Shown here piece by piece: positions 30,896 through 58,236 of a DNA stretch of 64,000 bases. Numbering within the stretch: the stretch's first letter is position 1; the number at the start of each line of letters is the position of its first letter. The stretch is taken from NCBI GenBank assembly GCA_037481695.1, contig JBBFLE010000018.1:1-64000 (forward strand). The letters are read 5' to 3'. The notes below the pieces were generated by a model. It saw only the letters and a program-made list of their open reading frames with translations. It did not search any database and was not told the DNA's origin. A program made the position numbers and the translations under genes. The stretch is from a bacterium. Lineage in GTDB: Bacteria > Desulfobacterota > Desulfocorpusculales > Desulfocorpusculum.

Positions 30896-30992
30896 GGAAG
30901 TGGAGAGGTTCTGGTGGGCCTCCTGGACTTCAAATCCAGTGTACCGGCCTAAAAAGTCGGTAGGTGGGTTCGATTCCCACGCACTTCCGCCA
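30896..30992 (+). tRNA. selC: tRNA-Sec (UCA anticodon), CCA encoded
   Basis: A 97-nt transcript with all features of bacterial tRNA-Sec. The anticodon arm is CTGGA-CTTCAAA-TCCAG with anticodon TCA. The D stem has 6 bp (AGGTTC/GGGCCT) with a 4-nt loop TGGT. The variable arm is a long hairpin ACCGGC-CTAAAAA-GTCGGT. The T arm is GTGGG-TTCGATT-CCCAC. The acceptor stem has seven pairs (GGAAGTG/CACTTCC); at the eighth position G faces G, where other bacterial tRNA-Sec have a pair. The discriminator is G and CCA is encoded. Presence implies that the genome makes selenoproteins, though no selA, selB or selD is in the window. Confidence 0.95.
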
Positions 30993-53792: not shown

Positions 53793-54035
53793 CTACCTCA
53801 GAAACAGCTCATGATATTCGTTCTCTTCCAAGTGAGCTCTCATCAACCCTGTAAGCAGATGTATGGTCCTGTCCATCTCTTCTTGGGTAAGCCTTGGGCA
53901 TATGAGCTCCAGGAGGCGGTCATCGGAGAACTTCTGGAGAAATACTTTGAAAGAAGCTTCATCCAGCTCCCTGGAAAGTCCAAACGCTATTTCCCCCTTA
54001 TAGTTCTCCACAAACTCATGAGAATGTTTGCCCAT
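53793..54035 (-). CDS. Small conserved acidic/helical protein
   Basis: 80 residues: HSHEFVENYKGEIAFGLSREL, then FLQKFSDDRLLELICPRLTQEEMDRTIHLLTGLMRAHLEENEYHELFL. It is helical, with one Cys. The pattern resembles short cytoplasmic proteins of sulfate reducers without assigned function. The ATG at 54035 has GGAG at a 6-nt spacing. It leads the LpxL-like gene and is divergent from the ABC-F gene (61 nt apart). Confidence 0.7.
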   Translation of the reverse strand: MGKHSHEFVENYKGEIAFGLSRELDEASFKVFLQKFSDDRLLELICPRLTQEEMDRTIHLLTGLMRAHLEENEYHELFLR

Positions 54036-54096
54036 GCTCGACTCCTTTTTTGGTTCGTCTTGCGCTATCCATGGGGCGGCAAGTAACATATCGTAC

Positions 54097-56073
54097 ATGC
54101 TCATCGCTGCCAATCATTTAACAAAATTCTACGGCAAACAGGATCTGATCCGAAGAGCCAGCCTTCATATCAACAGAGGCGAGAGGATCGGATTGGTGGG
54201 GCCCAACGGCTCGGGCAAGACCACCCTTCTCAAGATGCTTCTGGGCCAGGTGGAACCAGATGAAGGGGAAATCCATGTGGCCCGCCACATTCGTATCGGC
54301 TACCTGCCCCAGGATCTGCTCTCCTTCAAGGGAAAGACAATAATGGAACAGGTATTGGATGTGGCAGAGGAGGTTCGGTGGATAGAAAAGGAGATAAGCG
54401 CCCTACAAGAAGAAATGGGAAAAGACTCTGGGGCTGATCGGGAGGAAATGGCCCTGAGGTTGTCTCAACTCATGGATAGGTTCCAGAACCTTGGAGGATA
54501 TGATCTGCAACCAAGAGCTGAAAAGATTCTTGCTGGGTTGGGTTTTGAGCAGGCTGATTTTTCAAGGCCTACTGAAACCCTAAGCGGCGGTTGGATGATG
54601 AGGCTGGCCCTGGCTAGAGTTCTTCTGATCAACCCAGACCTGCTTTTGCTGGACGAGCCCACCAATCACCTGGACTTGGATGCCCTGAGGTGGTTGGAGG
54701 ACTTCTTGATGCAGATGGAAGCCTCTTTGCTGATCATCTCTCATGACCGGACTCTGCTTAACAGGGTGGTGACTCGAATCCTGGAGCTGGAAGAAGGGGA
54801 ACTGACCTCATACTCTGGGAATTTTGATTTTTACAGGAAGGAAAAGCAGCGGCGTCTGGAACAAAGGTGGGCTCTGTACAGGGCACAGCAAGAACAACTT
54901 AGACAGGTGCAACGTTTCATCGAGCGCAATAGGGCTCGTAAAGACAGAGCCAGACAGGTCCAAAGTCGTATCAAGTCCGTCGAAAAAATGGAACTTATTG
55001 AACCCCCTCGAATGACTTCCCAAATAAAATTTAGATTTCCTCCCTCACCGCCCTCAGCAAGAATAGTCGCAGAACTGGAGAAGATCTCCTTCGGTTTTGG
55101 TGAGAAGTTGGTCTTCAAGGAAGCCTCCCTTGTTCTGGAAAGGGGAGTCAAGCTTGCGGTAGTGGGTCCCAACGGCTCGGGCAAGACGACTCTCTTGAAG
55201 ATATTGGCCGGCGAACTGGCCCCCAGCAACGGCATCCGTAGGATAGGACACGGAGTTCGGATTGTTCACTTCTCCCAACACCACATGGACAAGCTGCATC
55301 CAGAAAAGACAGTGTTGGAGGAGCTGCAGGACTCCTGCTCTCATCCTCACCAGGGAGAGCTAAGAGATCTCCTGGGTGCCTTTCAATTTAGGGGCGATGC
55401 TGTTTTCAAGAGGGTGTCGGTACTTAGCGGCGGGGAAAGGAGCCGGCTGCTGCTTTGCAAGTTGCTTTTGGCTGAAGCCAACGTATTGCTTTTGGATGAA
55501 CCCACGAATCATCTGGATATTTCTTCCAGAGAAGTGTTGGAAAGGGCTCTGGTGGAGTTCAAGGGGGCCATTTGTTTGGTAACGCATGATCGGGAGCTAA
55601 TGAATCGAGTCACCAATCAGACTCTGGTTGTGCGTTGTCAGGGCTGGGAGGTTTTCCATGGCAATTATCAAGCGTACCTTGGCTCTGAAGCCAAGACTAG
55701 TGAAGAATCCCCCACAGCCCAGCTGTTTTCTAAGACAGGCAGGTCTTCTCGAAGAGACAAAGAGCAAAGGCGGCTAGAAGCCGAGTGGAGAAACAAGTTT
55801 TCCAAAATGCGCGGCCCCATTCAAAGCGAAATACAAGCCCTTGAAAAACAGGTGGAAATTGCCACAAAGAGACTCGATGAGATCCAGGAGCACATGGGAA
55901 ACCCTGAGCTATATCGTTTCGGAGATCGAGCTAGACAAATGCAACAGGAATTCCAAAGTCTAAGGGCTCAAATTAGGCAATGGACCCAACGGTGGGAGCA
56001 ATTGCACTTGGAGCTGGAAGAGATAGAAGACCGAATGATCCGGGAGCGGCCTCAGGCAAAAACCGGCTCATGA
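54097..56073 (+). CDS. ABC-F family ATP-binding protein
   Basis: Two ABC ATPase domains and no membrane helix. Walker A: GPNGSGKTTLLKMLLG and GPNGSGKTTLLKILAG. Signatures: ETLSGGWMMRLALA and SVLSGGERSRLLL. Walker B: LLLLDEPTNHLDLDAL and VLLLDEPTNHLDISSR. The interdomain linker is basic and coiled (RKEKQRRLEQRWALYRAQ). A C-terminal coiled coil (QIRQWTQRWEQLHLELEEIEDR) follows. ABC-F proteins bind the ribosome E-site or give antibiotic protection. This one looks closest to the Uup/EttA-like housekeeping group; no resistance motif can be named. Length 658. Confidence 0.92.
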   Translation: MLIAANHLTKFYGKQDLIRRASLHINRGERIGLVGPNGSGKTTLLKMLLGQVEPDEGEIHVARHIRIGYLPQDLLSFKGKTIMEQVLDVAEEVRWIEKEISALQEEMGKDSGADREEMALRLSQLMDRFQNLGGYDLQPRAEKILAGLGFEQADFSRPTETLSGGWMMRLALARVLLINPDLLLLDEPTNHLDLDALRWLEDFLMQMEASLLIISHDRTLLNRVVTRILELEEGELTSYSGNFDFYRKEKQRRLEQRWALYRAQQEQLRQVQRFIERNRARKDRARQVQSRIKSVEKMELIEPPRMTSQIKFRFPPSPPSARIVAELEKISFGFGEKLVFKEASLVLERGVKLAVVGPNGSGKTTLLKILAGELAPSNGIRRIGHGVRIVHFSQHHMDKLHPEKTVLEELQDSCSHPHQGELRDLLGAFQFRGDAVFKRVSVLSGGERSRLLLCKLLLAEANVLLLDEPTNHLDISSREVLERALVEFKGAICLVTHDRELMNRVTNQTLVVRCQGWEVFHGNYQAYLGSEAKTSEESPTAQLFSKTGRSSRRDKEQRRLEAEWRNKFSKMRGPIQSEIQALEKQVEIATKRLDEIQEHMGNPELYRFGDRARQMQQEFQSLRAQIRQWTQRWEQLHLELEEIEDRMIRERPQAKTGS

Positions 56074-56151: not shown

Positions 56152-56228
56152 CAAAAAAGAGCCCCCGCCTTGGTGCGGGGGCCAAAGTAAAGGAGGTTCG
56201 GGGAGTTGTTTCCCCAAAGTATATGACA
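56152..56228 (-). ncRNA. Putative small RNA, copy 1 of a tandem pair
   Basis: On the minus strand: TATACT-like box (56228-56219 region), then GGGGA-AACAAC-TCCCC (five-pair hairpin), an unpaired C-rich stretch with CCTCC, then the perfect eight-pair hairpin GCCCCCGC / GCGGGGGC (56182-56175 / 56168-56161) and a run CTCTTTTTT. The last two make a rho-independent terminator, so the transcript would be about 60-65 nt. The CCUCC is complementary to Shine-Dalgarno sequences. The copy at 56283-56357 shares the order of parts and roughly 75 percent of bases by eye. Confidence 0.6.
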
Positions 56229-56282
56229 CCCGATGCTGCTTTTTGGTTCCCAATGGCGTTGAGCATCAAAGTTTTTTTCCTC

Positions 56283-56357
56283 AAATAAAAACCCCCGCTG
56301 GGTACGGGGGCCAAAGTGGAGGAGGTTGAGGGAGTTGTTTCCTAACTAGTATGACAA
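56283..56357 (-). ncRNA. Putative small RNA, copy 2 of a tandem pair
   Basis: Same layout on the minus strand as copy 1: CATACT, AGGA-AACAAC-TCCC, C-rich linker with ACCTCCTCC, the hairpin CCCCCG / CGGGGG (56110-type arms at 56292-56297 and 56305-56310), and TTTTTATTTG. The 5' hairpin is weaker than in copy 1 while loop AACAAC and linker ACTTTGGCCCCCG are identical. The two copies are about 60 nt apart and both would be transcribed away from the radical SAM gene. Confidence 0.6.
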
Positions 56358-56502
56358 CAGTTCTCCGGAAAAGTTCCGGGGTGGGAAAAAAATTTTTTTG
56401 TTTTTAGGGCAGGCTCTGCTTTGGTGATGACGTCCCCTAGACCATGACTTATCCTTAGGGTGTCTAAGAGCTCAACTAAGCCAAGGAGAAGACTTTTTTG
56501 CC
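56358..56502 (+). other. Upstream region of the radical SAM gene
   Basis: Contains TCCGGAA-AAG-TTCCGG followed by AAAAAAATTTTTTTGTTTTT (56386-56405), a hairpin plus poly-U run that could stop transcripts on the plus strand. The palindromic A7T7 run would be curved DNA. Confidence 0.4.
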
Positions 56503-58236
56503 ATGTGGCCTTTTTTTTCCCATGCAGACCTAATTTTGCTTCATCCCCCTAGCGTTTTTGACTTCAGGGACCACCCAATAATGTTTGGGCCCATAAGCGA
56601 TGTGATCCCATCTACGGCCATCTTCGAAATGTATCCGGTGGGATTTTCAGCCATGGCCGAGTACCTGGACCGAAAAGGTTTCAAGGTAAGGATCATTAAT
56701 CTGGCTCTTCGCATGCTCAAGAGCCGCAAGTATGACCCTGAGGCTGTGATCAGGACCCTAAAGCCTAAGGCCTTTGGAATAGATCTCCATTGGCTGCCCC
56801 ACGTTCAGGGAAGTCTCAAGGTGGCTTCCATATGCAAGAAGCTTCACCCAGACATTCCGGTAATAATGGGGGGTTTTTCTTCCTCTTATTTTTTTAGGGA
56901 ACTGCTCCAAAGGCCCGAGGTGGACTATGTGCTTAGGGGAGATTCCACAGAGGAGCCATTGCGTGTGCTCATGGAGGCCATAAAGAATGGGCGTACCCAA
57001 GACCTCTCACATGTACCAAATCTGGCCTGGAAGACTCCCAGCGGCCAAATAGAAGTCAATCCCATCTCCCATGTCCCTGAGGTTCTTGACCATTATGTGG
57101 ACAACTACGGATTCATGATCAGAACAGCCATCCGCTATTTGGACATCAAGAGCCTGCTGCCCATACATGATTGGTGGTCCTATCCCATCACTGCGGTGAT
57201 GACGTGCAGAGGTTGCGCTCATTCCTGTTCCTTTTGCGGGGGAGGCCGCTATGGACTCAAGTTGTTCGGCCAAAGGGTCAAGCCCGCCTTCAGATCACCA
57301 CAAATGATAGTCCAAGACATCAGACAGATATCCAGTTTCACTTCAGCACCCATATTCGTAGTGGGCGACCTGCGCCAGGCTGGGGAGGCTTATGCTGAGC
57401 AGGTTATGGAAGGGCTCGAACCATTGAAAATCTCAAACCATATTGTGTTGGAACTCTTTGGGAAAGCTCCTTCCTCCTATTTCAAGAGACTGGCCAAGGC
57501 AGTGCCCAACTTCAACTTGGAGATGTCCCCCGAGAGCCATGATATAGATGTGAGGGGAGCCAGTGGAAAGCATTATACGAATCAGGAACTGGAGGAGACC
57601 ATCCAAGCAGCCCTGGAGGCAGGCTGTCGTAAATTCGATCTTTTTTTTATGATTGGATTGCCAAGACAGACCTTTGACTCTGTATTGGAGACAGTAGGCT
57701 ATTGCGAGGAATTGCTGAAGAAGTTCGGGCCGCGGCTGGTGCCTTTCATCTCTCCTCTTGCGCCCTTCATAGATCCCGCAAGCCCCATATTCGAAGATCC
57801 AGAGCGCTTTGGCTACAGGTTGTTTTTCAGAAGATTAGAAGAGTTTGAGAATGCTCTGCTGCAACCCAGTTGGAAGTACGCCCTGGGTTACGAGACCAAA
57901 TGGATGTCCAGAGACCAGATAGTGGAGGCCACCTATGAGGCAGCCCTTAGGCTGAACCGGATAAAGGCTGCCCACGGTCTGCTTGACAGGGGCAGTTCCC
58001 AGAGGCTGGAGCAGCGTATCGAGTTGGCACGAAGGTTAGTAAGGCAGATAGACCAGTGTCTCTTGCTTCCTGAGGCTGAGAGAAAGAGGGCCTTGGAAGC
58101 CATACGAAACCAAATACAGCAAGTCAATTCTGACACTCTTTGCGAGGCAAGGGAAATCCAGTGGCCCTCCCCCAGGAACTTCCATTTCATGGGGATAGTC
58201 AGGCGCCTGCTCCATAGCAGATGGAATGGGGGATGA
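56503..58236 (+). CDS. B12-binding/radical SAM protein
   Basis: N-terminal 180 residues look like a cobalamin-binding domain that has lost its usual DxHxxG motif: LLHPPSVFDFRDHP, AEYLDRKGFKVRIINLAL, FGIDLHWLPHVQG. The central radical SAM domain has MTCRGCAHSCSFCGGG (CxxxCxxC, preceded by another Cys) near residue 230. A long C-terminal helical part follows. This layout matches the group often annotated as B12-binding/radical SAM of unknown reaction; a methyltransferase or lipid/hopanoid-type reaction is only a guess. Length 577. The start ATG 56503 has AAGGAGA at a longer than usual spacing (13 nt). Confidence 0.8.
   Translation: MWPFFSHADLILLHPPSVFDFRDHPIMFGPISDVIPSTAIFEMYPVGFSAMAEYLDRKGFKVRIINLALRMLKSRKYDPEAVIRTLKPKAFGIDLHWLPHVQGSLKVASICKKLHPDIPVIMGGFSSSYFFRELLQRPEVDYVLRGDSTEEPLRVLMEAIKNGRTQDLSHVPNLAWKTPSGQIEVNPISHVPEVLDHYVDNYGFMIRTAIRYLDIKSLLPIHDWWSYPITAVMTCRGCAHSCSFCGGGRYGLKLFGQRVKPAFRSPQMIVQDIRQISSFTSAPIFVVGDLRQAGEAYAEQVMEGLEPLKISNHIVLELFGKAPSSYFKRLAKAVPNFNLEMSPESHDIDVRGASGKHYTNQELEETIQAALEAGCRKFDLFFMIGLPRQTFDSVLETVGYCEELLKKFGPRLVPFISPLAPFIDPASPIFEDPERFGYRLFFRRLEEFENALLQPSWKYALGYETKWMSRDQIVEATYEAALRLNRIKAAHGLLDRGSSQRLEQRIELARRLVRQIDQCLLLPEAERKRALEAIRNQIQQVNSDTLCEAREIQWPSPRNFHFMGIVRRLLHSRWNGG

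Follow-up and report, generated by a model that had tools for sequence, protein, structure and literature searches.

The window, a 64,000-nt stretch of bacterial DNA from contig JBBFLE010000018.1 (Desulfocorpusculum, assembly GCA_037481695.1), contains two sibling elements that read on the minus strand and lie between two plus-strand genes, one for an ABC-F ATPase (54028-56073) and one for a B12-binding radical SAM protein (56503-58236). Copy A (56346-56281) and copy B (56217-56152) have a spacing of ~129 bp, and each would encode a small RNA (sRNA) of ~66 nt. As the initial annotation of this DNA had described, both copies contain a C-rich linker that includes CCTCC, as well as a terminator hairpin followed by a run of Ts. 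The intrinsic terminators, at 56290-56312 in copy A and 56160-56183 in copy B, each consist of a 9-pair hairpin and a T-rich tail, and the seeds are CCTCCTCCACTTTGG (56311-56325) and CCTCCTTTACTTTGG (56182-56196), respectively, all on the minus strand. The 5′ hairpin that had been assigned to each copy was strong in copy B, where a 7-bp stem (UUGGGGA/UCCCCGA) is found and the whole RNA folds with -30.9 kcal/mol (z = -4.6 compared to shuffles), but it was weak in copy A, whose fold barely beat the shuffles (z = -0.95).

Before every copy there is a promoter of the sigmaE/extracytoplasmic function (ECF) type, of the form GGAACYN-N15/16-GTCATA in the window, a feature that the initial annotation had missed. 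Pattern matching placed the promoter of copy A at 56350-56377 (-35 box GGAACTTTT, -10 box GTCATA) and that of copy B at 56222-56250 (-35 box GGAACCA, -10 box GTCATA), again on the minus strand. Both resemble the boxes published for the sigmaE promoters of micA and rybB, GGAACTTTT and GTCAAA (PMC1804206). Promoter A is kept in the homologs, as is the position of promoter B. Because terminator A precedes promoter B, each RNA seems to be transcribed as a unit of its own.

Conservation of the elements and their promoters

Three genomes were compared within the family: that of the window (G000, 4.1 Mb), G001 and the sister genome G002, the last being an assembly that is 80% complete. A DNA search of 59 relatives found a syntenic tandem pair in G002 with 71% DNA identity (E = 1.9e-16), which argues that the pair did not arise by chance. 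A covariance search, proposed in the initial annotation, was carried out in 395 genomes of the phylum with a model built from five copies that did not include the promoter. Convincing copies were confined to the three genomes of the family, six in total and four of them outside G000. They contained CCUCC, a promoter and a terminator in the same orientation as in the window. Matches outside the family reached at most 32 bits, and those inspected had no promoter; only 13 candidates per genome were scored, and weak relatives may thus be missed. The copy on contig C5 of G001 scored 32 bits, adjoins the same radical SAM gene, was absent from the training set and has the promoter GGAACTTTT...GTCTCA. 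As the promoter was outside the RNA model, it is independent evidence for this sixth copy. The second copy in G001 is unlinked and lies between what we read as response-regulator-like and hydrolase-like open reading frames (ORFs).

Three features are kept across the copies: the promoter, the CCTCCTYYRCTTTGG block and the terminator. GGAAC[CT] and GTC at 15-16/17 spacing were found directly upstream in 6/6 copies, and each copy has its own terminator. The best conserved block in the RNA was CCUCCUYYRCUUUGG, and the seed of copy A was invariant or nearly so across the six copies. Two of the four homologs have lost the 5′ hairpin, which is therefore not the defining feature. The compensatory changes that had been expected in both hairpins were sparse. 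An exact-pattern scan of genome contigs with the G000 core gave no match, and a regular-expression scan at the loci of more distant radical SAM homologs gave no element. When the whole phylum was searched for an ECF promoter combined with CCTCCTYY, 28 matches were obtained, of which four came from the three genomes of the family; among the other 24, a weak terminator-like hairpin was found downstream of just one. In an Rfam scan, no family reached its gathering score for the elements in the window or at the loci of their homologs.

Among the exact GGAACTT-N15/16-GTC sites of the three genomes whose loci were examined, most were located inside long ORFs, although the long-ORF test also put the two G002 sRNA promoters within spurious open frames. 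The clear sites with an A/T-rich -10 region were the sRNA promoters and one site before a conserved 101-aa protein in G000 and G002, which probably shares a regulon with the sRNAs. The sigmaE-like promoter of this gene reads GGAACTTT...GTCAAAAAAAAT (L053, G000 C4:218305-218278, minus strand; L105, G002 C13:5444-5468, plus strand). The protein contains EEHxREMIxCPHQPGLLLISKKAC and had no match in NCBIfam. Furthermore, the -35 box was found inside a short inverted repeat in copy A of G000 (CCGGAACTTTTCCGG; window region 56371-56357, minus strand) and in copy B of G002 (GGGGAACTTTTTTCCGGGG; L059 near 5181, minus strand), and no such repeat was seen around the -35 box in the other copies.

A candidate porin target and alternative explanations

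The complement of the seed was searched in the three genomes, and the sequence context was then read. In G000 as well as in G001 it pointed to one and the same gene, which encodes a protein of 486-510 aa with a signal peptide and a C-terminal F. The NCBIfam profile DESULF_POR1, 'outer membrane homotrimeric porin', matched both proteins at full length (E = 7.1e-18 and 1.6e-27), and they are 50% identical to each other. A single-sequence AlphaFold model of the porin had a predicted local distance difference test (pLDDT) value of 32 and was not used. The G000 porin leader, ACCAAAGTAGAGGAGGGAAAGACATG, forms 15 contiguous pairs with sRNA B, one of them G-U, and the G001 leader, ACCAAAGTGAAGGAGGATCATCCATG, forms 15 perfect contiguous pairs with the C5 sRNA of that genome. 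In both cases it is the best conserved block of the RNA that pairs with the ribosome-binding site, and the U/C difference between the sRNAs of G000 and G001 is mirrored by A/G in the porin leaders. The extension of the anti-Shine-Dalgarno pairing to the porin mRNA by CUUUGG had also gone unnoticed in the initial annotation. Potential targets were ranked among 358 genes called with a simple gene caller in a 464-kb sample of G000. By contiguous pairing of the linker, a measure that replaced duplex energy after the first ranking was known, the porin scored 35.7 and was the top gene, followed by the next at 28.4.

The initial annotation had suggested a pair of sibling regulatory RNAs whose CCUCC would prevent translation from starting, and this is the best-supported reading. 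We favour, with a probability of roughly 0.6, a model in which sigmaE-controlled twin sRNAs act in trans to mask the Shine-Dalgarno sequence of the porin mRNA, and perhaps of others that encode envelope proteins, and in this way repress them. In this model, envelope stress would lead an ECF (sigmaE-like) sigma factor to transcribe each ~60-66-nt RNA from its own promoter of the GGAAC-N15/16-GTC type. The single-stranded linker would present CCUCCU, a mimic of the 16S anti-Shine-Dalgarno tail (the canonical bacterial 16S 3′ tail, to which part of the linker is identical), followed by the ACUUUGG extension. The linker would then pair with the ribosome-binding site of the porin, CCAAAGURRAGGAGG just before AUG, and block binding of the 30S subunit, such that less porin is made. 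As the conserved core mimics the mRNA-binding tail of the ribosome and also fits the start of the porin mRNA, porin synthesis is probably shut down under stress. Further envelope mRNAs may be targeted more weakly if their Shine-Dalgarno sites are extended and rich in A/G. Hfq was not detected with PF17209 in G000 or with TIGR02383 in G000, G001 and G002, although the positive controls worked. The two siblings may represent the noncoding arm of the response to envelope stress, in a bacterium that has no detectable Hfq.

Several observations weigh against this model. GGAACYW-N15/16-GTCWNA occurred at 7 sites in G000, two of which were the sRNA promoters, compared to 11 sites for the reversed pattern, and the motif is thus not enriched genome-wide; the unlikely part is its placement before the sRNAs rather than its count. 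In favour of the model, at least three sigma genes of the ECF type are present in G000: L062 (RpoE/SigW-like, followed by an anti-sigma gene), L063 (followed by a putative anti-sigma gene, in our own reading) and L065 (with a C-terminal extension). The motif was absent directly upstream of all three, and the sRNA promoters are therefore not pinned to one ECF sigma factor. Regarding the target, the DESULF_POR1 scores of both proteins are below the curated cut-off, and the duplex-energy ranking, which gave credit to G-rich pairing at the structured 5′ end, placed the porin only 18th or 34th of the 358 genes. The porin was picked out by the complementarity search itself, and the leaders in G000 and G001 are homologous and are therefore not independent matches. 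With shuffled seeds, ~0.3 genes of the porin's quality would be expected genome-wide. The match in G000 alone is accordingly not significant genome-wide; what supports it is that the porin also matches in G001, and overall the support is good but not conclusive.

The chance expectation would also fit ECF-driven sRNAs that are broad anti-Shine-Dalgarno repressors or have other specific targets, with nothing special about the porin. Such a broader action is possible because AGGAGGTT before ATG is common in G000 (56 sites vs 19 in the control). Weaker seed sites were found ahead of the genes for a triheme cytochrome, an ABC-type binding protein and two binding proteins of the TAXI-TRAP type, and G002 has the sRNAs, yet no porin ortholog was found in that 80% complete assembly. 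Nevertheless, we consider an unselective or differently directed repressor rather unlikely, since conservation extends past CCUCC into CUUUGG, which pairs with the porin ortholog of both G000 and G001, and since sigmaE sRNAs classically target porins (PMC1804206, PMC11005410).

The sRNAs could also be real but serve another response from promoters that do not depend on an ECF factor, for instance sigma-70 promoters with TATACT, which follows GTC in copy B. The lack of a motif linking the promoters to any single ECF sigma factor would be in line with this. The sigma-70 promoter scan gave no sigma-70-like promoter, however, and the retention of GGAAC and GTC in all six copies makes an ECF-independent origin quite improbable. 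Even less credence is given to the view that there is no gene pair at all and that the elements are terminators, repeats of the repetitive extragenic palindromic (REP) type or plus-strand ribosome-binding sites of small ORFs with AAAGTRRAGGAGGTT as the Shine-Dalgarno sequence. Intergenic hairpins are common and AGGAGG is present on the plus strand, but it is not followed by a conserved start codon or reading frame, and the ribosome-binding-site interpretation was rejected on this ground. The interpretation as a REP or other dispersed repeat, which the initial annotation had also considered, was rejected because there are just two copies in G000. In addition, the promoter, seed and terminator are conserved in one orientation across three genomes.

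The porin leader itself contains a second Shine-Dalgarno sequence and ATG (AAAGGAGGTGATG) ~90 nt before the porin ATG (L242, G000 C8; L142, G001 C19). This ATG opens a leader frame of ~30 codons that in G001 seems to terminate at the start of the porin (ATGA) and in G000 continues in frame into it. The leader might thus allow translational coupling and might offer the sRNAs a second site.

Relation to known small RNAs

The closest parallels are MicA and RybB, the sigmaE-dependent and Hfq-dependent sRNAs of enterobacteria (PMC1804206). In both systems there is a pair of short sRNAs with individual terminators and promoters of the GGAACTTTT/GTCAAA type, and the mRNA of a porin or other outer membrane protein, here predicted, is the target of pairing near the ribosome-binding site (PMC1804206). 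In contrast to MicA and RybB, the sRNAs of the window are tandem siblings without sequence similarity to them or an Rfam match, they come from a Desulfobacterota-type host in which no Hfq was detected, and their seed is internal and resembles the 16S anti-Shine-Dalgarno sequence. The seed of RybB is at its 5′ end. Two Rfam families were far from including the elements as members: RF02278 (Betaproteobacteria toxic sRNA) reached 21.1 bits vs a gathering score of 50, and RF00519 (suhB/mmgR) reached 19.3 bits vs 41, weak scores that stem from the C-rich linker and the GC-rich terminator.

Fusobacterium nucleatum lacks Hfq and ProQ and uses FoxI and FoxJ, with C-rich seeds, against the porin FomA (PMC11005410). 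As described there, this is a sigmaE-dependent pair with a C-rich seed that represses an abundant porin, as is predicted here for the sRNAs of the window; the likeness is drawn from that description. Among the differences, FoxJ is ~156 nt long and also activates, and Fusobacterium belongs to a different phylum (PMC11005410).

Anti-Shine-Dalgarno CCUCC motifs in unpaired regions are shared with the Alpha-r14/cuckoo RNAs (NfeR1; PMC10746234) and the CcsR RNAs (PMC10253847). Alpha-r14 RNAs have a sigma-70 promoter and fold into three hairpins, every one of which carries CCUCCUCCC in an unpaired region (PMC10746234), whereas the sRNAs of the window have one linker with a single CCUCC-containing block and at most two hairpins. 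CcsR RNAs are likewise homologous tandem sRNAs under stress sigma factors, but they are processed from one RpoH transcript together with a DUF1127 protein gene (PMC10253847). The copies in the window differ from CcsR (CIN1) in that each has its own promoter and terminator, and their flanking genes encode the ABC-F ATPase and the radical SAM protein; DUF1127 itself was not searched for.

Porin-repressing sRNAs under sigmaE are best known from gammaproteobacteria, with Fusobacterium as an outlying case, and a limited literature search found no ECF-controlled sRNA described from this part of the tree. The elements of the window are found in one bacterial family only. We would give even odds to the wider proposition that they represent an independently evolved, Hfq-less noncoding arm of sigmaE in a Desulfobacterota-type lineage, a further separate invention besides those in enterobacteria and Fusobacterium, in which a copy of the anti-Shine-Dalgarno sequence is combined with an ACUUUGG specificity extension matched to the porin leader. 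If true, the circuit from an ECF sigma factor through a small RNA to porin shut-down would appear to arise repeatedly, and a seed that mimics the anti-Shine-Dalgarno sequence could acquire specificity when extended by a few bases. The prediction is so precise that one reporter fusion could test it.

Elsewhere in the window, a selenocysteine tRNA gene is located at 30896-30992 on the plus strand, on which Rfam and ARAGORN agreed, and selenoproteins are therefore to be expected in this genome.
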